A DNA stretch of 64,000 nucleotides from Pseudalgibacter alginicilyticus (lineage in GTDB: Bacteria > Bacteroidota > Bacteroidia > Flavobacteriales > Flavobacteriaceae), in assembly GCF_001310225.1 (NCBI RefSeq), contig NZ_CP012898.1:1798001-1862000 (forward strand), read 5' to 3'. Position numbers and translations under genes: made by a program. Below are positions 636 to 9,669 of the stretch, one piece after another. How positions within the stretch are numbered: position 1 is the first letter of the stretch; each line of letters begins with the position of its first letter. The notes beneath the pieces were generated by a model. It did no database searches, was not told the origin of the DNA, and saw only the letters and a program-made list of their open reading frames with translations.

Positions 636-1412
636 TTACAAGGTGATTTTGGTGAAGTTATCATTTGCTTTGATCAACATATCTGTATTTCCCATATTAA
701 TTGTATTGACTCCATTTTTTAAAGCATCAAAACAATTTTCCAATTTAGGAAGCATCCCATCTGCAATAATTCCTCTATCTAACAAATATTTATATGTTTT
801 AGAATCAATATGTTTTATCACTGAATTTTTATCTTGTATGTTTTCTAAAACACCATTCAATTCAAAACAATAATAAACAGACGTTTTATATAATTTACTC
901 ATTCCTATGGCTACTTGCGAAGTAATGGTATCTGCATTTGTGTTTAATAATTGTCCGTTACCGTCATGCGTAATGGCACAAAAAACAGGTATAAAATCTG
1001 CTTGAATTAATTTATCTATAGATTCGTGAGCTACTTTTTTAACATCTCCTACAAAACCAAAATCAACTTCTTTAATAGGTCTTTTTTCAGAAGAAATACT
1101 ATTTACATCCGCACCAGTTAACCCAATAGCATTTACATTTAAAGCTTGCAGTTTTGCAACCACATTCTTATTTACCAAACCTCCATAAACCATTGTAATA
1201 ACTTCTAATGTTTTGGCATCCGTAACACGCCTACCATTAACCATTTGAGATTCTATTCCTAGTTTTAAAGCCACAGAGGTAGCACGTTTACCTCCTCCAT
1301 GTACCAAAATCTTTTTCCCTTCTAAATTAGAAAACAATTTCAGAAAAGCATTTAAAGACGTTTCATCTTCAATAATGTTTCCTCCAATTTTGACTATTTT
1401 TAATGTCTCCAT
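636..1412 (-). CDS. argB: N-acetylglutamate kinase
   Basis: Phosphorylates the gamma-carboxylate of N-acyl-glutamate, the second step of cyclic or linear arginine synthesis; cytoplasmic. The 258-residue length fits the amino-acid kinase family. Near the N-terminus there is the nucleotide loop KIGGNIIED and the substrate-binding HGGGKRAT; a later NTNADTITSQVA segment contacts ATP. It lies between argF' (45 bases upstream) and argE (1 base downstream) on the same strand, clearly in one operon. There is no N-terminal extension of the kind seen in arginine-inhibited ArgB hexamers, so feedback inhibition cannot be claimed from sequence. Confidence 0.95.
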   Translation of the reverse strand: METLKIVKIGGNIIEDETSLNAFLKLFSNLEGKKILVHGGGKRATSVALKLGIESQMVNGRRVTDAKTLEVITMVYGGLVNKNVVAKLQALNVNAIGLTGADVNSISSEKRPIKEVDFGFVGDVKKVAHESIDKLIQADFIPVFCAITHDGNGQLLNTNADTITSQVAIGMSKLYKTSVYYCFELNGVLENIQDKNSVIKHIDSKTYKYLLDRGIIADGMLPKLENCFDALKNGVNTINMGNTDMLIKANDNFTKITL

Positions 1413-1456
1413 GCTTTATATTTCATTGGTTTTCAACTATGCTAACCTGACTTTAG

Positions 1457-2404
1457 TTAAAGGTTTTCAAGTATTTTTTTAAGCACAGTTTGTGCTGCAA
1501 AAGTTCTATTATTTGCTTGTTGGATTACCAAAGAATTTTCACTATCTAAAACAGCATCAGACACAACTAAGTTTCTTCTAACAGGCAAACAATGCATAAA
1601 TTTAGCATTATTTGTCAATTTCATTTTTTCAGCACTTACCATCCAATCTAAATCGGAATTTAATATTTTTCCGTAGTTAGAGTAAGAACTCCAGTTTTTA
1701 GCATAAATAAAATCGGCATTAGCAAAGGCTTCATCCTGATTATAAATAATAGGTGAATCCCTTGTTATTTCTGGATTTAAATCATAACCTTCCGGGTGTG
1801 TAATAACAAACTCTACGTCCATTTTTTGCATAGCCTGTGTAAAACTATTTGCTACCGCATGTGGCAATGCTTTAACATGTGGTGCCCAAGTAAGTACTAC
1901 TTTAGGTTTTGCTACTTTAGAAAATTCTGAAATGGTTACAGCATCCGTTAAAGCTTGCAATGGATGTCCTGTGGCACTTTCCATACTTACTATTGGCACG
2001 GAAGCATGTTTTATAAACGAATTTATGACTTGTTCACTTTCATCTTTTGGTTTATCTGTTAAAGTTGGAAAAGCACGTACAGCAATAATATCACAATATT
2101 GAGAAACTACAGCTGCAGCTTCTTTAATATGCTCTGCAGTACCTCCATTCATTACCGAGCCATCCTCAAATTCAATACCCCAAGCATCCCCAGACACATT
2201 CATTACAATAGGATTCATTCCTAAATTTAATGCTGCTTTTTGAGTGCTTAACCGGGTTCTTAAACTACTATTAAAAAACAACAATCCTATGGTTTTATTA
2301 GCACCTAAAGCCAAATGTTTCAATGGGCTTGCTTTTAATGCTTTGGCTTCTTCAATCCAAGAATTAATGTTATCTATATCTTGAATGGACGTATAATTCT
2401 TCAT
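1457..2404 (-). CDS. argF': N-succinylornithine (or N-acetylornithine) carbamoyltransferase
   Basis: Transfers carbamoyl phosphate onto an N-acylated ornithine. This variant is used by Bacteroidota and Xanthomonas in place of ordinary ornithine transcarbamylase. At 315 residues it has the carbamoyl-phosphate loop FFNSSLRTRLSTQ at about 43-55, in place of the classical STRTR form, and HCLPVRRN near the C-terminus. The 80s loop reads NGGTAEH with Ala90. In the studied relatives the equivalent residue is Glu in the acetyl-specific enzyme and Pro in the succinyl-specific one, so a small non-acidic residue favours N-succinylornithine (inference). It sits between proB (8 bases upstream) and argB. 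Transcarbamylase identity is sure; the acyl preference is not. Confidence 0.93.
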   Translation of the reverse strand: MKNYTSIQDIDNINSWIEEAKALKASPLKHLALGANKTIGLLFFNSSLRTRLSTQKAALNLGMNPIVMNVSGDAWGIEFEDGSVMNGGTAEHIKEAAAVVSQYCDIIAVRAFPTLTDKPKDESEQVINSFIKHASVPIVSMESATGHPLQALTDAVTISEFSKVAKPKVVLTWAPHVKALPHAVANSFTQAMQKMDVEFVITHPEGYDLNPEITRDSPIIYNQDEAFANADFIYAKNWSSYSNYGKILNSDLDWMVSAEKMKLTNNAKFMHCLPVRRNLVVSDAVLDSENSLVIQQANNRTFAAQTVLKKILENL

Positions 2405-2412
2405 TTTTACTT

Positions 2413-3174
2413 TTATTTTATTCTAGTAAACGGTATTTTATTATTCATAGCATTCACTATAAAATCATCTTCCAATCCATTTACTATCCATGTTTCTATA
2501 TTTGCTTTTTTAGCAACCAAAGCTGCCTCTATTTTAGATTGCATTCCGCCACTGCCGTGTGAAGATTTAGAATCTACCACTTGATTGATAAGTGTATCAA
2601 TATTTGAAACTGCTTCAATAGTTTTTGGTTGTTTCTCGTTTATAGATTCTTTTGTATAAATGCCGTAAGTATTTGTAGCAATTACAAACAAATCAACTCC
2701 TAAAAGCGAGGCTGTTAATGCTCCTAATTTATCGTTATCGCCAAATTTAATTTCATCTGTTGCAACAGTATCATTTTCATTAATAATGGGGATATAACTA
2801 TTATTAACCAACACATTAATAGTATTTACAATATTAACTCTACTCTCTTTCTTTTCAAAATCTGAATAAGATAACAAACACTGCGAAGTTAGTAAACTAT
2901 GCTCTCTAAATATTTCTTGATATATCCTTATTAAATGGGGCTGCCCAATGGATGCTAAAGCTTGCTTTACAAAAATTGGCTTGCGTTTACTCTCTAATTT
3001 CACAAACTGTTTTGCCACAGCTATAGCACCTGAAGTTACTATTATAAACTCATGTGTATCTTGTAATTGTGCTATTTGAATGGCTAAATCCTCAATTTTA
3101 CCTCTTGAAATATTATCTGTTTCTTTAGTAAGGGTATTAGAACCTATTTTTAATAAAACTCTTTTTTTCTTCAT
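2413..3174 (-). CDS. proB: Glutamate 5-kinase
   Basis: First step of proline synthesis: ATP-dependent formation of gamma-glutamyl phosphate, handed to ProA. The start chosen is the ATG at 3174 (MKKKRVLLKIGSNTLT), which overlaps the proA stop by one base (TAATG); an upstream in-frame ATG at 3207 would lie inside proA and adds a stretch with no family character. The protein is 253 residues and consists of the amino-acid kinase domain only: KIGSNTLT nucleotide loop, VTSGAIA, INENDTVATDEIKFGDND substrate segment and SHGSGGMQSK. The C-terminal PUA domain of the E. coli enzyme is absent, which is common in this phylum. Tight coupling to proA supports joint expression. Confidence 0.94.
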   Translation of the reverse strand: MKKKRVLLKIGSNTLTKETDNISRGKIEDLAIQIAQLQDTHEFIIVTSGAIAVAKQFVKLESKRKPIFVKQALASIGQPHLIRIYQEIFREHSLLTSQCLLSYSDFEKKESRVNIVNTINVLVNNSYIPIINENDTVATDEIKFGDNDKLGALTASLLGVDLFVIATNTYGIYTKESINEKQPKTIEAVSNIDTLINQVVDSKSSHGSGGMQSKIEAALVAKKANIETWIVNGLEDDFIVNAMNNKIPFTRIK

Positions 3175-4367
3175 TATCTTGTTTGTCCATTTCCATGAAC
3201 ATACCATTTATTTGTTACTAAATGCTGTAAACCGATTGGTCCGCGTTGGTGTAATTTATCTGTACTAATAGCTAATTCGCCACCCAATCCTAATTGTCCA
3301 CCATCAGTAAATCTTGAAGATGCATTATGATACACCGCAGCCGTATCTACATTTTCCATGAAAGCTTTGGCTTCGTTTTCATCCTTAGTAACAATAACTG
3401 AAGAATGTCCGCCAGAATATTTATTAATCATGGCAATGGTGTCTTGATTAGACGCAATTTCGCCTATAAGAATCTTATAATCTAAAAATTCTTCATACCA
3501 AATATCGTCAGATTTTATGCCTTCTAAACCATGCTCTTTTGAAATTGTATCATCACCTAATACTTGAATTTTAAAATCTTTTAATTTTGAAATAAGGTTT
3601 GCAACAAAATCTTTTTTATTAGGAAGATTTTCATCTATCAATACCTTATCAATGGCATTGCAAGCTGATATTTTTGATTTTCCATTCAAAATAACGTTGA
3701 TAGCAATATCCAAATCCGCGTCTTTATGTACATACACAAAATTATTACCACGTCCACTAATAATTACTGGACAAGTAGCATGCTGCTTAGTAAATGCTAT
3801 CAATCTTTCACCACCACGTGGCACAATCAAATCAACCTGTTGTGTTGGATTTTCTAAGAATGCTTGAGTTTCTATTCTATTAAATTGTAAATACTCCACC
3901 CAATTTGTTGAGGCACCATTTTCTTTTAAAGCTTGATGCCATAATTCAACAATCTTAAGATTAGAATTTAAAGACTCTTTTCCGCCTTTTAATAATATTT
4001 TATTTCCAGATTTGAATGCGATTCCAGCTGCTTCCACAGTAACATCAGGTCTGGATTCATAAATAATCAAAACCGTACCAAAGGATGCCGTTTTATTATA
4101 AACCTGCATCCCATTATCATGCTTAAAGCGAAAACGCTCTACCCCAACAGGATCGTCTTGCGATGCTAAATGTGTTACAGAAGCAATCATTTCATCAACT
4201 TTTTTATCGTCCGCTTTCAATCTGTCATACATGGAAATATCATCTCCACTGTAAGCCTCTAAGTCGCCCTTATTAACCTCAATGATAGCCGCTCTTTCTT
4301 GTTCCAAAAGTTGCGCCATTTTAAGTAATACAGCATTTCTTGTTTCAATTGATAATAAAGTGTTCAT
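3174..4367 (-). CDS. proA: Gamma-glutamyl phosphate reductase
   Basis: NADPH-dependent reduction of gamma-glutamyl phosphate to glutamate semialdehyde, which cyclises towards proline; cytoplasmic, aldehyde dehydrogenase superfamily. The 397-residue protein shows the family blocks IYESRPDVTVEAAG, LKGGKESLNSN and the VPRGGERLI segment, and ends in GLGGELAISTDKLHQRGPIGL. The catalytic cysteine region is ISACNAIDKVLID. It follows argD by 32 bases and overlaps proB by one base, so proline and arginine genes form one transcription unit. No truncation or odd composition seen. Confidence 0.95.
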   Translation of the reverse strand: MNTLLSIETRNAVLLKMAQLLEQERAAIIEVNKGDLEAYSGDDISMYDRLKADDKKVDEMIASVTHLASQDDPVGVERFRFKHDNGMQVYNKTASFGTVLIIYESRPDVTVEAAGIAFKSGNKILLKGGKESLNSNLKIVELWHQALKENGASTNWVEYLQFNRIETQAFLENPTQQVDLIVPRGGERLIAFTKQHATCPVIISGRGNNFVYVHKDADLDIAINVILNGKSKISACNAIDKVLIDENLPNKKDFVANLISKLKDFKIQVLGDDTISKEHGLEGIKSDDIWYEEFLDYKILIGEIASNQDTIAMINKYSGGHSSVIVTKDENEAKAFMENVDTAAVYHNASSRFTDGGQLGLGGELAISTDKLHQRGPIGLQHLVTNKWYVHGNGQTR

Positions 4368-4399
4368 TGTTTTCTTTTTTTTGTTGTCAGTGCTCTATT

Positions 4400-5524
4400 C
4401 TACAATGCTTTTTTTAAAGCCTCAAAAAACTGATCAACGTGTTGTTTTTTAATTGTTAATGGTGGTAAAATCCGTATTAGTTTTTTATTGGATGCACCAC
4501 CAGTAAATATATGATTTTCATATATAAGTTTTTTTCTAAGTTCTCCAACTTCAAAATCGAATTCCAATCCGATCATTAATCCTCTTCCTTTAATATTTTT
4601 TATTTGAGGAATTGTTTTTGCTTTTGAGATAAAATATTCTGATATGGTATGGACATTTTCAAGCAACTTATCTTCTTCAATGGTATTTAAAACGGCTAAA
4701 CCAGCAGCACACGCCAAATGATTTCCTCCAAACGTAGTTCCTAACATCCCATGCTTAGCCTCAATACTTGGATGAATTAAAACGCCACCAATAGGAAATC
4801 CATTTCCCATTCCTTTTGCTATAGAAATAATATCTGGAGCAACATTATAATACTGAAAAGCGAAAAACTTACCAGAACGCCCGTAACCAGATTGCACCTC
4901 GTCCGCAATAAAAAAGGTATTATTTACTTTACAAAGTTGATCCACTTGCTCAAAAAATTTAGCAGTGGCTTGATCCAAACCTCCAACACCTTGAATAAAT
5001 TCAACAATAACGGCACAAACATCGCCTTTTTCCAATTCCTTTTTAACCGCTTCAACATCGTTTAGAGGCAAAATTGTTACCGCTTGCTGCGCATTTATTG
5101 GTGCTATAATATTAGGATTATCAGTAGCCGCTACTGCTGCCGAGGTACGACCATGAAATCCATTTTTAAACGCAACCACACGAGATTTCCCTGTTTTAAA
5201 AGAGGCTAATTTCAATGCGTTTTCATTGGCCTCTGCACCCGAATTACATAAAAACAATTCATAACCTTTACAACCTGAAAGGGCTTCTAATTTATTAGCC
5301 AATTCAAGTTGCAACGGATTTTGAATGGCGTTGGAATAAAAGCCTAACTTTTCAACTTGATTTGTAATAGCCTTAACGTAATTAGGGTGTGCATGTCCAA
5401 TTGAAATCACGGCATGACCACCATATAAATCTAAATATTCAATTTCTTTGTCATCATAAACAAAAATATCTTTTCCAGAAACTGGAGTAACACTGTATAA
5501 TGGGTAAACGTCAAATAGCGGCAT
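4400..5524 (-). CDS. argD: Acetylornithine/succinylornithine aminotransferase
   Basis: PLP-dependent transfer of an amino group from glutamate to N-acylglutamate semialdehyde, giving N-acylornithine. The 374-residue class III aminotransferase shows NSGAEANENALKLA (phosphate cup), ADEVQSGYGRSG with the ring-stacking Asp, and IAKGMGNGFPIGG, whose Lys is the Schiff-base residue. It lies between argC (113 bases upstream) and proA (32 bases downstream) on the same strand. Class III enzymes are promiscuous, but context fixes the arginine role. Confidence 0.94.
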   Translation of the reverse strand: MPLFDVYPLYSVTPVSGKDIFVYDDKEIEYLDLYGGHAVISIGHAHPNYVKAITNQVEKLGFYSNAIQNPLQLELANKLEALSGCKGYELFLCNSGAEANENALKLASFKTGKSRVVAFKNGFHGRTSAAVAATDNPNIIAPINAQQAVTILPLNDVEAVKKELEKGDVCAVIVEFIQGVGGLDQATAKFFEQVDQLCKVNNTFFIADEVQSGYGRSGKFFAFQYYNVAPDIISIAKGMGNGFPIGGVLIHPSIEAKHGMLGTTFGGNHLACAAGLAVLNTIEEDKLLENVHTISEYFISKAKTIPQIKNIKGRGLMIGLEFDFEVGELRKKLIYENHIFTGGASNKKLIRILPPLTIKKQHVDQFFEALKKAL

Positions 5525-5637
5525 TTTTTTGTTTTAATTTTAATAGATTCATCAAATCTAACTTTGTGTTATTTCTACTTTACTCAGTAATCATGGCTCT
5601 AACACCCAAAACTTATTGAATCTCGTTTATTTTAATA

Positions 5638-6621
5638 TTAAAAATAAGTTCCTTTTAATTGAATCCCTTCATTTTCGGGCAAACCAAACATCAAATTCAT
5701 ATTTTGAACTGCTTGTCCTGAAGCGCCTTTTAATAAATTATCAATTATACTTGTAATCAGTAATTTATTATTGTGCTTATGCAAATGTATCAAACATTTG
5801 TTAGTATTTACTACCTGCTTAAGATGCAATTCTTTTTCTGAAATAAAAGTAAAAGCAGCATCTTTATAAAAGGACTTATACATATCTTTTGCCTCTTCAA
5901 TGGTGCCTTCAAAATTGGTGTAAACAGTCGCAAAAATTCCTCTTGAAAAATTACCGCGATTAGGCATAAAAAGTATTTCAGATGAAAAACTGCTTTGTAA
6001 TTGTTTTACAGATTGATTAATTTCTCCTAAATGCTGATGGGTAAAAGGTTTGTAGTAAGAAAAATTATTATCCCTCCAAGTAAAATGAGTTGTTTCAGAC
6101 AATGATGTTCCGGCTCCTGTAGCCCCCGTAACGGCATTAATATGCACATCGGTATTCAGCAATCCTTTACCTGCCAATGGTAATAACGCTAATTGAATAG
6201 CTGTTGCAAAACAGCCAGGATTAGCAATATAATTGGCTTTTTCAATCACTACTTTTTGTAACTCAGGCAACCCATAAACAAAGGTTTTCCCTTTAAAAAC
6301 CTTGTCTTTTTCCAATCTGAAATCATTTCCTAAATCAATAATCTTTGTATTTTCAGAAAAGGCATTCGCTTCTAAAAATTTAATGGAATTACCGTGACCC
6401 AGACACAAAAACAGCACATCAACATTAGGATTAATAGTATCTGTAAATTTCAAATTTAAACTCCCAACTAAATCTTGATGTATGTTACTAATTTGATTTC
6501 CAGCATTGGAGGTACTAAAAACAAAATTAATTTCAGCATTTGGGTGTGTAATTAATAATCTAATTAACTCACCAGCCGTATATCCTGCTCCCCCTATAAT
6601 ACCAACTTGTATTTTTTTCAT
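5638..6621 (-). CDS. argC: N-acetyl-gamma-glutamyl-phosphate reductase
   Basis: Third arginine step, reducing N-acyl-glutamyl phosphate to the semialdehyde with NADPH. The 327-residue protein opens with the dinucleotide fold GIIGGAGYTAGELIRLL and has the catalytic cysteine motif NPGCFATAIQLALLPL; later blocks include GATGAGTSLSETTHF and PNRGNFSRGIFATVY. Typical length, no anomaly. It lies downstream of argG with a 106-base gap and upstream of argD with a 113-base gap. Both gaps are AT-rich and no terminator is visible in them, so read-through is likely. Confidence 0.95.
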   Translation of the reverse strand: MKKIQVGIIGGAGYTAGELIRLLITHPNAEINFVFSTSNAGNQISNIHQDLVGSLNLKFTDTINPNVDVLFLCLGHGNSIKFLEANAFSENTKIIDLGNDFRLEKDKVFKGKTFVYGLPELQKVVIEKANYIANPGCFATAIQLALLPLAGKGLLNTDVHINAVTGATGAGTSLSETTHFTWRDNNFSYYKPFTHQHLGEINQSVKQLQSSFSSEILFMPNRGNFSRGIFATVYTNFEGTIEEAKDMYKSFYKDAAFTFISEKELHLKQVVNTNKCLIHLHKHNNKLLITSIIDNLLKGASGQAVQNMNLMFGLPENEGIQLKGTYF

Positions 6622-6727
6622 TTTACAATTTATTTCTCATTATATAATCATATCGAACAAGACATTGCATTCCATTTAACCATGCATTTTCTAATACTAA
6701 CGAAATGATTCATCGTTTAAAATCTTA

Positions 6728-7906
6728 TTAAGAGTTGTTTACCTGTTGATAAATCTTGTTTGCATTTCCAATAATTTTGATAAATCCTTTGGCATCATCT
6801 GCAGTCCATGCTTTATTCTCTTCACCGTAACTTCCAAATTTAGCGCTCATTAAATCATGTTCAGACTTAATACCGTCTAATGAAAAATGATAGGGTTTTA
6901 AAGTAACCGTTACATCGCCACTCACCTTATCTTGACTACTCTCTAAAAAGGCTTCCATATTTCTCATTACGGGGTCTAAATATTGCCCTTCATGCAAATG
7001 CATACCGTAAAAACTTGCCAAATATTCTTTATGTTGTAATTGCCATTTTGTTAAGGTATGTTTCTCTAATAAATGATGAGCTTTAATAATAATTAAGGCT
7101 GCTGCGGCTTCAAAACCAACACGACCTTTAATACCTACAATTGTATCTCCTACATGAATATCTCTCCCTATTGCATATGATGAGGCTAAACTATTTAAGA
7201 CTTCAATATTAATTTCTGGATCATTTTCAACCCCATTAACAGCAACCAATTCACCTTTTAAAAAAGTTAATGATACTTTTTCTTCTTCATTATGTTTCAA
7301 TTGAGACGGATATGCCTCATTTGGCAAAGGCTTATCTGATGTTAATGTTTCTGAACCACCAACACTTGTACCCCATAAACCTTTGTTTATTGAATATTTT
7401 GCTTTTTCCCAAGACATATCTATTCCATTCGTTTTTAAATAGTCAATTTCTTCCTGTCTGGTTAGTTTTTCATCTCTAATAGGCGTAATAATTTTAATAT
7501 GTGGTGCTAAGGTTTGAAAAATCATGTCGAAACGTACTTGATCATTACCTGCTCCTGTGCTACCGTGAGCAATATATTCTGCATCAATGCTTTTAGCATA
7601 TTCTACAATTTCAATTGCTTGAATGATACGTTCAGCACTTACTGATAGTGGATAAGTATTATTTTTTAATACATTTCCGAAGATTAAGTACTTCACCACT
7701 TTTTGATAAAATGTGGGTACTGCATTGATGTTTTTATAAGTTGAAACTCCCATTTTATAAGCATTACTTTCTATATGGTTAATTTCCTCTTTTGTAAAAC
7801 CTCCTGTATTTACACTCACAGCATGTACATCATATTCTTTTGATAAACTTACGGCGCAATATGAGGTATCTAAGCCTCCACTATATGCTATTACTAATTT
7901 TTTCAT
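6728..7906 (-). CDS. argG: Argininosuccinate synthase
   Basis: Condenses citrulline and aspartate with ATP. The 392-residue protein begins with the PP-loop ATP-binding motif AYSGGLDTSYCAV and contains HGSTGAGNDQVRFD and GRDIHVGDTIVGIKGRVGFE, all family blocks. It is the second gene of the minus-strand cluster, 25 bases after the GNAT gene. argH, needed for the final step, is not in the window; the cluster continues off the left edge, where it might lie (inference). Confidence 0.95.
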   Translation of the reverse strand: MKKLVIAYSGGLDTSYCAVSLSKEYDVHAVSVNTGGFTKEEINHIESNAYKMGVSTYKNINAVPTFYQKVVKYLIFGNVLKNNTYPLSVSAERIIQAIEIVEYAKSIDAEYIAHGSTGAGNDQVRFDMIFQTLAPHIKIITPIRDEKLTRQEEIDYLKTNGIDMSWEKAKYSINKGLWGTSVGGSETLTSDKPLPNEAYPSQLKHNEEEKVSLTFLKGELVAVNGVENDPEINIEVLNSLASSYAIGRDIHVGDTIVGIKGRVGFEAAAALIIIKAHHLLEKHTLTKWQLQHKEYLASFYGMHLHEGQYLDPVMRNMEAFLESSQDKVSGDVTVTLKPYHFSLDGIKSEHDLMSAKFGSYGEENKAWTADDAKGFIKIIGNANKIYQQVNNS

Positions 7907-7931: not shown

Positions 7932-8504
7932 TTATATTTGCTTTAAATGACCAATTTCAGACTCAAAACATTCATTTACATAATACCTAAAACTATGCTC
8001 ATCTCGTAATTTTCCTAATTTCTCAAGTTCTTCAACCAATCCTGCAGACATTTTAGCTAAGGTAACATGAGTCATACCTAATAATTCGTTATAATAATGC
8101 ACTTTAGGTGTTTGTGCTACTGAAATAAGAAACGAATCAGAAAACAATTCGGTCATTTTATACATTAATAACAACCCAAGATTATAATTTCTACATTCGC
8201 GATCTACCCATAAAGAGGTACGTTCAAACACGGAATGCCCTTTAACCAAATGCTCATGAACAAAAATATGGCCATAAATTCGATCATTTTTTTTCAATAT
8301 AAAACAACCGTTTTCTGCACGTGTTTTTAACATATCAACATCTACATAGTACAAAGTTGAAAGTTCTCTTGATCTTTCTGAAATAATTTCCAGTGATTTA
8401 TTTGAAAGTTTATAAACAAGCTTTATTTCTATTTCTTCTTTTGTACAAAATAATTCTGCTTGTTCTATAACACTATTAATTTCTATGTCCAATATCGTAT
8501 TCAT
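7932..8504 (-). CDS. GNAT-family N-acyltransferase, probable glutamate N-acyltransferase
   Basis: First gene of the arginine cluster, about 190 residues. The start at 8504 (MNTILDIEINSVIEQAE) is preferred over an upstream in-frame ATG at 8582, whose extra 26 residues look like translated leader. A GNAT core is visible: a beta-strand ILKKNDRIYGHIFVHEH, then LWVDRECRNYNLGLLLMYKM, where the acyl-CoA-binding loop would be, and VHYYNELLGM. By position it probably makes N-acetyl- or N-succinyl-glutamate and so starts the pathway, replacing ArgA or ArgJ; this is inference from context because GNAT sequences alone do not fix the substrate. It is followed by argG after 25 bases. Confidence 0.8.
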   Translation of the reverse strand: MNTILDIEINSVIEQAELFCTKEEIEIKLVYKLSNKSLEIISERSRELSTLYYVDVDMLKTRAENGCFILKKNDRIYGHIFVHEHLVKGHSVFERTSLWVDRECRNYNLGLLLMYKMTELFSDSFLISVAQTPKVHYYNELLGMTHVTLAKMSAGLVEELEKLGKLRDEHSFRYYVNECFESEIGHLKQI

Positions 8505-8662
8505 TTTAGTTTGTTGTTTAAAAACATATCTCAATTTTAACCAATAACCTATAAAAAGACCATTGATTATTAAACTAAACAATTCATTAAAGTATATCTA
8601 ACTCTAAAAATTATTATTTTAAACAATATAAGTAACGAAAATTGAAAGTGAATTACTTTCTA

Positions 8663-8829
8663 AAAAAACACCCCTTAGGGGCGATTTTGAGGAATACACA
8701 CAACAGCAGTTTTAGTACACAATACTAAAACATAAGAGATAAGAGATATGTGGTTTCCTGTTTTCACTGAATAACTACCTAAACTATTAACTCTAAATCG
8801 TCGGCACAAGCCCCTTTCGTTAATATAAG
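8663..8829 (-). ncRNA. Candidate structured leader / attenuator RNA upstream of the argG operon
   Basis: Read on the minus strand, transcription from the promoter at 8834-8863 would give a leader ending in a small GC hairpin, CCCC-TAA-GGGG (8671-8681), followed by TGTTTTTTT (8670-8662), which looks like an intrinsic terminator about 160 bases before the GNAT start. Inside the leader are a perfect 8-bp stem with 5-base loop (8710-8717 with 8723-8730) and a second stem (8690-8700 with 8749-8759; 5 bp, a 2x2 internal loop, 4 bp). AGGGGC (8815-8810) can pair with GCCCCT (8682-8677), which would break the terminator hairpin. This is seen in sequence. That it senses arginine, or is instead a free small RNA such as 6S, is inference. 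I recognise no known riboswitch class. Confidence 0.42.
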
Positions 8830-8833
8830 GGTA

Positions 8834-8863
8834 CAAAACTACAACTAATTATTTACTAAACAA
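8834..8863 (-). promoter_or_regulatory. Promoter of the arginine-cluster leader
   Basis: On the minus strand the exact Bacteroidota -7 box TAGTTTTG occupies 8841-8834. A TTG lies 19 bases upstream (8863-8861), near the expected -33 position. The predicted start is around 8829-8826. It abuts the long hairpin terminator of the preceding operon, as expected for two units arranged in tandem. Confidence 0.55.
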
Positions 8864-8910
8864 CATTCATCTCATATAAAAAAACATAATTTTTTATATG
8901 AGATGAATGT
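8863..8910 (-). terminator. Strong intrinsic terminator after the DUF1080 gene
   Basis: Perfect 21-bp inverted repeat: 8863-8883 pairs with 8890-8910 around the 6-base loop ACATAA. The inner six pairs are A-T, giving a U-run at the loop side. It begins 10 bases past the DUF1080 stop and separates the sugar operon from the arginine cluster on the same strand. Confidence 0.8.
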
Positions 8911-8919
8911 CTACTCTTA

Positions 8920-9669
8920 TTAAAGTTCTCTCAACCAAATATTACGATAACTAACCCTACTATTATCTTGATGATCTTGCAATATTAAAGGTCCTTTACC
9001 GTGTTTCTCATATTTAGGATAACCGATAAATTTGGTTGGACCTATTATTTTAAAATGATCTTGAACCAAAATACCGTTAAATAAAACAGTAACGGTAGCT
9101 TGTTGAGTTACATTACCTCCTAAATCAAATTCAGGCTGATGATAAATAATATCATAGGTATTCCATTCACCTGTTTCAACAGCCGCATGCACCAAAGGAA
9201 CAGATTGTTTGTACACAGAACCTGCTTGCCCATTTACATATGTGTTATTACCATTGTTATCCAACACTTGAATTTCATAAAGTCCTTGTAGAAACACACC
9301 ACTGTTAGCTCGATGTTGACCGCTTCCTTCTAATCTTTTAGGCGATTTCCATTCAATATGAAGCTGAATACTACCAAAGTTTTGTTTAGTTTTAATATTA
9401 CCAGATTTATTTTTGACAGTCATACTTCCATCATTATTTATTATCCAATCGGCTTCTTTTCCATCTTTAGCGTTTACCCATTGCTTTAAGTCGCTTCCAT
9501 TAAAAAGCACAATAGCGTCACTTGGTGGTAAATTATTTATACCAGGAGTTACAACAGGTACTTTAGGTTCCCAAACTTCTGTTTCTTGAGGTTTCATCTT
9601 TTGCTCTTTTTCTTGAGCAAAACAAAGAAACGACCAAAAAGCCAATACTAAAACTCCTATTTTTTTCAT
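8920..9669 (-). CDS. Secreted DUF1080 (3-keto-disaccharide hydrolase-like) protein
   Basis: 249 residues with a Sec signal peptide (hydrophobic VLVLAFWSFLCFA, cleavage likely before QEKEQ) and one DUF1080 domain, a concanavalin-like jelly roll. Landmarks are the N-terminal IVLFNGSDLKQWVN, the mid-domain HRANSGVFLQGLYEIQVLD, and the C-terminal GPLILQDHQDNSRVSYRNIW. DUF1080 proteins have been linked to cleavage of glycosides oxidised at C3. It is the last gene of the minus-strand sugar operon, 13 bases after the IolE-like gene, and is followed by a strong hairpin terminator. Acting in the periplasm on a keto-glycoside made by one of the neighbouring Gfo/Idh enzymes is inference from context. 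Confidence 0.85.
   Translation of the reverse strand: MKKIGVLVLAFWSFLCFAQEKEQKMKPQETEVWEPKVPVVTPGINNLPPSDAIVLFNGSDLKQWVNAKDGKEADWIINNDGSMTVKNKSGNIKTKQNFGSIQLHIEWKSPKRLEGSGQHRANSGVFLQGLYEIQVLDNNGNNTYVNGQAGSVYKQSVPLVHAAVETGEWNTYDIIYHQPEFDLGGNVTQQATVTVLFNGILVQDHFKIIGPTKFIGYPKYEKHGKGPLILQDHQDNSRVSYRNIWLREL

Follow-up and report, generated by a model that had tools for sequence, protein, structure and literature searches.

A probable leader-peptide attenuator with an invariant 5' RNA domain before the arginine operon of Pseudalgibacter alginicilyticus

The minus strand of the window, our term for the whole 64,000-nucleotide stretch of DNA analysed here, probably carries a leader-peptide attenuator that reads the arginine supply through translation and controls a GNAT-argGCD-proAB-carbamoyltransferase-argB operon. 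We favor this reading, made from the DNA sequence and its comparison among relatives, because a short open reading frame (ORF) stays in frame across genera, ends with Arg codons in the relatives, and has a hairpin folded over its last codons and stop. It is favored also because the element always lies in cis to the arginine operon in bacteria where ArgR was not detected, and because a Trp-codon leader built on the same logic occurs in the window's genome. An initial annotation had proposed an attenuator or riboswitch before the arginine operon but had missed the leader ORF (8767-8675, minus strand). The attenuator part of that proposal is upheld by the promoter box, the leader ORF, the terminator-like hairpin and a competing long-range complementarity, and also by position, since GNAT-argG follows the element wherever the locus is long enough to show it. 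The riboswitch part gained no support beyond an invariant 5' domain. Rfam covariance models matched nothing in the window at gathering score (no known riboswitch or T-box class), a known riboswitch being rejected on this ground, and gave only sub-threshold miRNA, ctRNA and plastid matches in 8600-8920. Because the leader ORF is present, the likely mechanism shifts from a ligand-binding RNA to a ribosome-mediated one.

Direct reading of the minus strand located every motif of the initial annotation where it had been placed. We take TAGTTTTG at 8841-8834 to be a Bacteroidetes-type promoter -7 box, the consensus of which is TAnnTTTG; a loosely defined TA...TTG/TCG box lies no more than 26 nt upstream in 102 of the 107 loci that carry the 5' domain. 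This domain (8825-8785) comprises P1 (8825-8819 with 8791-8785), P2 (GGC/GCC, 8812-8810 with 8805-8803) and invariant internal loops. It includes AGGGGC (8815-8810), a candidate antiterminator arm that is complementary, as had been claimed, to GCCCCT at 8682-8677. The leader ORF runs from a GTG at 8767 through 30 codons, encoding VKTGNHISLISYVLVLCTKTAVVCIPQNRP, to a TAA at 8675. Inside it are a long hairpin with the outer stem AGGAA/TTCCT (8759-8755 with 8694-8690) and hairpin A (GTTTTAGTA/TACTAAAAC, 8731-8723 with 8717-8709), the perfect hairpin reported earlier at 8710-8730, which we measured at 9 bp. Hairpin B, CGCCCC-TAA-GGGGTG at 8683-8669, is terminator-like and is followed by TTTTTTT at 8668-8662 (hairpin with tail, CGCCCCTAAGGGGTG plus T7, 8683-8662); it contains the last Arg-Pro codons and the stop, the stop codon falling in the terminator loop. 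Farther 3' are the hairpin GAAAGT/ACTTTC (8660-8644), the positional counterpart of a hairpin C (AGGTGNGTCC) of other genera, and TTTCGTTA (8640-8633), which is complementary to TAACGAAA of the 5' domain and has a similar motif in 46 of 50 window-type loci. A terminator scan of 8450-8950 gave three matches against 0.1 expected, one of them at 8683-8669. The other two are a single 20-bp hairpin with a T-rich tail at 8863-8910 (minus strand), between the upstream gene and the promoter, which is probably the terminator of the 3-keto-disaccharide hydrolase-like gene at 8920-9669.

The first structural gene behind the leader encodes a GNAT acetyltransferase-like protein (7932-8504, minus strand, start chosen at the ATG at 8504) that scores 20.8 bits with Pfam Acetyltransf_1, for which the cut-off is 20.7. 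Profile matches place argG, argC, argD, proA, proB, an N-acetylornithine-type carbamoyltransferase gene and argB, also on the minus strand, within 636-7906, with an M20-peptidase stretch beyond argB. Curated NCBIfam cut-offs were passed by argC, proA, proB, the carbamoyltransferase and argB, with argG (E 4e-85) and argD (E 2e-106) below theirs. Of five relatives whose first gene was compared with Pfam, four have a GNAT there and the fifth just misses the cut-off. The first-gene GNATs of the window and of L022, L024 and L179 are of different sequence types, and a search of 149 related genomes for the window type found it, at E <= 1e-6, in 4, its own genome included. ArgR was detected in 0 of 31 genomes of the order (19 from the window's family) by a search that placed 8 of 14 controls above the cut-off. 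For the question of how these bacteria control arginine with no ArgR detected, a leader ending in Arg-Pro before GNAT-argG would be a concrete, testable answer.

A DNA search of 397 genomes of the family matched 20, and 18 of these (the window's own included) have this element; the matches in G012 and G227, which cover 21 and 27 nt only, were excluded from the count. A covariance model of the 5' domain, R1, recovered the same 18 of 397 genomes at 65-75 bits, with none between 34.8 and 65, and only the window's own genome among 395 across the phylum, under stricter filters that lose weak matches. The core was absent from the seven examined of nine weaker R1 matches (<35 bits; L140 and L141 lay outside this examination). 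A collection scan with the exact core pattern returned 89 loci, partly repeating the 18; among the 80 matches listed are Algibacter, Aquimarina, Tamlana, Polaribacter, Hyunsoonleella, Aestuariibaculum, Flavivirga, a Jejuia assembly and uncultured relatives. The 107 loci represent 93 distinct sequences (window included) with the same 5' domain. In 93 of the 107, argG lies downstream, and the remaining 14 end before argG could appear. Elsewhere in the window's genome, the 5'-domain pattern with up to three mismatches had no further occurrence, giving one site only.

In 104 of 107 loci the leader start codon and hairpin B are separated by a multiple of three nucleotides, with five values (84, 87, 90, 93 and 96 nt); of the other three loci, L093 and L098 have a degenerate end, and L094, missed by the script, reads in frame. 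At loci with the 5' domain the leaders terminate in RRP or RFPxxRP. Ninety-one sequences were grouped by leader type (the 93 distinct ones without the short loci L032 and L048, duplicates also left out): window-type leaders have a GTG start (for example VKTGNNISLISFVLVNFTRAVVVRFPHTRP), Aquimarina-type leaders an ATG start (MKTANYIFTEVRVQLLNTLDNTIIPVRRFRRPLGV), and mixed-type leaders an ATG four codons upstream (METSVKTGNHISIISSTLVISTKGIVVRFPVRRP). Counted back from the final Arg-Pro, L093 and L098 left out, the last 12 codons contain on average 2.28 Arg in window-type (36 distinct), 3.83 in Aquimarina-type (46) and 2.86 in mixed-type leaders (7), one Arg per tail being given by construction because the tails are anchored on that Arg-Pro; the corresponding values for codons 2-13 are 0.03, 0.13 and 0.0. 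The window leader itself has one Arg in its last 12 codons, which counts against attenuation. Its sole Arg codon is CGC at 8683-8681 (codon 29), and at codon 24, where 32 of the 36 distinct window-type ORFs (the window's counted in the 36) have Arg, the window leader has TGT. We regard the window copy as derived, its leader having a single Arg codon. Window-type leaders gave no coding signal in a codon-position test (entropy 0.57/0.57/0.47), and an amino-acid substitution test saw no selection at the peptide level (z 0.89, reached by 97 of 500 shuffles). The middle of the window-type ORF is conserved as RNA. The window leader is probably translated.

Folded alone, the leader has an ordinary energy (z -1.33, 23 of 200 shuffles as good); single-sequence stability was rejected as evidence for this reason, and the evidence is conservation instead. 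In the window-type alignment A3, comprising 35 distinct sequences with the window included (L087, L093, L098 and duplicates left out), hairpin A has compensatory, both-side changes in seven of its nine pairs. These amount to 22 both-side cells against 4.8 in shuffles; none of 500 shuffles reached 22, and slid versions of the hairpin reached at most 11. The outer stem AGGAA/TTCCT is paired in 92.6% of cells, with one both-side change in one pair and three pairs that only break. P1 and P2 do not vary within the 35 sequences, which speaks neither for nor against those stems. Between clades, P1 differs on both strands (UAUUAAC/GUUAAUA versus UAGUUAAC/GUUACUA), a compensatory change read by eye and requiring a bulged U in the second clade. 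Conservation and covariation among relatives, the absence of which the initial annotation had named as its refutation, are thus both present.

Leaders ending in Arg-Pro also occur at loci that lack the 5' domain. An argG match was obtained in 57 of 99 related genomes, and 30 loci were taken, 27 of them without the domain. In 23 of these 27, a short ORF ending in RRP-stop (22) or RPRP-stop (1) precedes GNAT-argG (for example MKGQNYITTTISTTAQVRPFSPRRRRP); the same rule gave 0 of 27 on the reverse strand and 1 of 540 in shuffled sequence. The other four are L162 and L170, in which RRP is followed by further residues, and L167 and L171, where the rule finds none. We rely on this controlled count rather than on the mean of 4.05 Arg in 22 leaders without the 5' domain, because picking leaders by an Arg-near-end rule biases that mean. 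Where both ends were located (18 loci), 83 to 140 nt separate the leader stop from the GNAT start. The RNA over this stop codon reads CGYCGCCCGUAAGGGUG in most loci without the domain and is followed by hairpin C, for example GGAAAU-AGGUGAGUCC-AUUUCC or GGAGUU-AGGUGUGUCC-AACUCC, with a stem that is compensatory by eye. The motif AGGUGNG(U/C)CC also occurs upstream in 27 of 27 of these loci. Hairpin C is conserved in genera outside the window's clade; in L021-L025 and L151-L179 it lies 3' of the leader stop with AGGTGNG(T/C)CC or close variants and has no U run. The AGGUGNGUCC loop is absent from the window's clade. A strict pattern of the hairpin B/C module, used in place of a model since the stems were misaligned in alignment A2, matched 7 of 196 and 7 of 257 genomes as a lower bound, the same seven each time and all of the window's family. 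Each of the seven matches has a leader ending in RRP-stop and is followed by a GNAT-like gene and argG, and the backwards control gave 0. The picture would be one of an attenuator in transition, with Arg-rich leaders and hairpin C in most genera sampled and, in the window's clade, an invariant 5' RNA domain and leaders poor in Arg.

In the mechanism that we propose, transcription would start just before the 5' domain and a ribosome following RNA polymerase would translate the leader. When charged Arg-tRNA is scarce, the ribosome would stall on the late Arg codons; because these codons reach up to and into the left arm of hairpin B, it could then mask that arm or leave GCCCCU free for AGGGGC of the 5' domain. 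With hairpin B blocked, transcription would continue into the operon. With enough arginine, the ribosome would finish and leave, hairpin B would form before the U tract, and transcription would stop.

Outside the window, there is little support for the step that leads from hairpin B to termination. The intrinsic terminator is strong in the window; its weakness in most relatives counts against attenuation. In a survey that took the best hairpin of each stretch, not hairpin B alone, and that split 57 from 50 loci by a looser rule than the leader-type grouping, the 57 window-type or mixed-type loci included 3 with a tail of 7 T in 8 behind a hairpin. Tails with 6 T in 8 or more were found in 17 of the 57, in 4 of 50 Aquimarina-type loci and in 5 of 26 without the 5' domain. 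Because strong U tracts are so rare in relatives, Rho or translational control retain some weight. It is unlikely, though worth serious consideration, that a translated arginine-responsive leader acts without an intrinsic terminator, affecting how the GNAT mRNA is translated or decays, or working through Rho-dependent termination. The weak U tracts fit this alternative, as does the conserved hairpin C, with no following U run, between leader and GNAT in Aquimarina and in genera without the 5' domain; however, the terminator-like hairpin of the window, with its T7, is a textbook case, and in this genome the trp leader comes with a strong intrinsic terminator.

The long-range pairing on which one branch of the attenuation mechanism would depend is kept in 98.6% of cells across the 35 window-type sequences, and the RNAalifold consensus includes AGGGGC:GCCCCU. 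The window-type alignment has no both-side change in this pairing, which is counted against attenuation. Constrained folding gave the energies that follow, which take in neither ribosome nor kinetics. In transcripts ending before GGGG, all 35 sequences give the long-range fold a lower energy than the P1/P2 fold, and in 33 of them it is the unconstrained optimum. Of the 35 full leaders, 30 favor the long-range fold over P1/P2 plus hairpin B; the window favors the local fold, by 2.3 kcal/mol, a further point against attenuation. Also counted against it, the unconstrained optimum of most full leaders is neither named fold (mean -41.2 versus -35.1 and -38.5 kcal/mol), the long-range fold being optimal in 7 of 35. 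The competing folds lie within a few kcal/mol of each other.

The clade-restricted, invariant 5' domain is the part that attenuation leaves unexplained, and it is the most interesting part. Its core is identical in 18 of 18 loci found without the exact pattern (the window's own included), invariance being judged on these 18 because the collection scan required the exact core, and much of the domain is not needed for AGGGGC/GCCCCU pairing. In L093 and L098, both from uncultured assemblies, the domain is kept while the leader end and hairpin B are broken; this counts against attenuation and hints at a function of the domain itself. Very tentatively, and with considerable doubt, we suggest that it is a second sensor or an element engaging ribosome or polymerase, and that arginine control in the window's clade has moved from counting Arg codons, of which one is left, to an RNA-based sensor coupled to the leader peptide. 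A metabolite-binding aptamer (for arginine, ornithine or another ligand), forming a riboswitch added to the leader peptide, we consider improbable: it would account for the identical core and for the extent of the domain beyond the pairing arm, but no Rfam model matches, the domain occurs before the arginine operon only, and one compensatory change between clades, seen by eye, is all the covariation it offers.

TnaC stalls with tryptophan and SpeFL with ornithine, and an arrest peptide of this kind, in which free arginine or ornithine would stall the ribosome at the leader end, is a distinctly poor candidate here. In favor of arrest, most leaders end in Arg-Pro at or just before the stop, and the window's clade manages with one or two Arg codons; but the peptide beyond the Arg-Pro end is not conserved between clades, and the leader end is also dictated by hairpin B. 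TnaC, SpeFL and the fungal arginine attenuator peptide are, like the leader proposed here, amino-acid-sensing leader peptides, but they sense free ligand through the nascent chain (PMC8429421), a feature for which the arginine leader gives no evidence. The free 6S-like small RNA offered as an alternative in the initial annotation would fit the long hairpins behind a promoter box but is ruled out for practical purposes, since a 115-bit 6S-Flavo match lies elsewhere in the same genome (C1:815626-815732), the RF01685 model has no match at the arginine leader locus, and the element stays in cis to the arg genes, with argG downstream wherever the stretch is long enough.

Leader-peptide attenuation, which remains our preferred reading, resembles that of trp/his-type ribosome-mediated attenuators (in Bacteroidetes, Bacteroid-trp RF01692) in its ORF with end-product codons, cognate operon and terminator-like hairpin. 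It differs in that the amino acid is arginine and that the Arg codons overlap the terminator arm, with the stop in its loop; it differs also in the invariant 5' domain, and the RF01692 model gave no match at the arginine leader locus. In the window's genome RF01692 matches at G000:C1:3579376-3579501 (L118), where the leader MNTILNNTWWWCF and a strong terminator precede an anthranilate synthase I gene. The element was not recognised in the literature covered on arginine or argG leader peptides and on Bacteroidetes attenuation, which left subscription papers mostly outside, and an earlier report is possible, above all in Lopatovskaya et al. (2010), on attenuation of amino-acid operons. In Flavobacterium psychrophilum, of the same bacterial family, clues for leader-peptide attenuation before amino-acid biosynthesis operons include structured elements at pheA and hisG; the section concerned names these two and not arginine, and argG occurs 0 times in its main text (PMC9723704). 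The Staphylococcus aureus rbfL leader peptide also senses arginine shortage but blocks the rbf ribosome binding site and so acts on rbf translation, not on an arginine operon (PMC13009471).

An Rfam search of nine relatives' loci returned Flavo-1 RNA only, downstream of argG in two (L151:3689-3770 and L153:3664-3761). A second Arg-rich ORF, such as MKILKNKIRCSIPGLPVRNRRRSF, stands upstream in several of the loci that lack the 5' domain; in L151, L154, L160 and L163 this ORF (MKxLKNKIRC...) lies upstream of the RRP-stop leader with a U-rich AACGTAATTTTAATTTTT behind it, and the two are possibly tandem attenuators.
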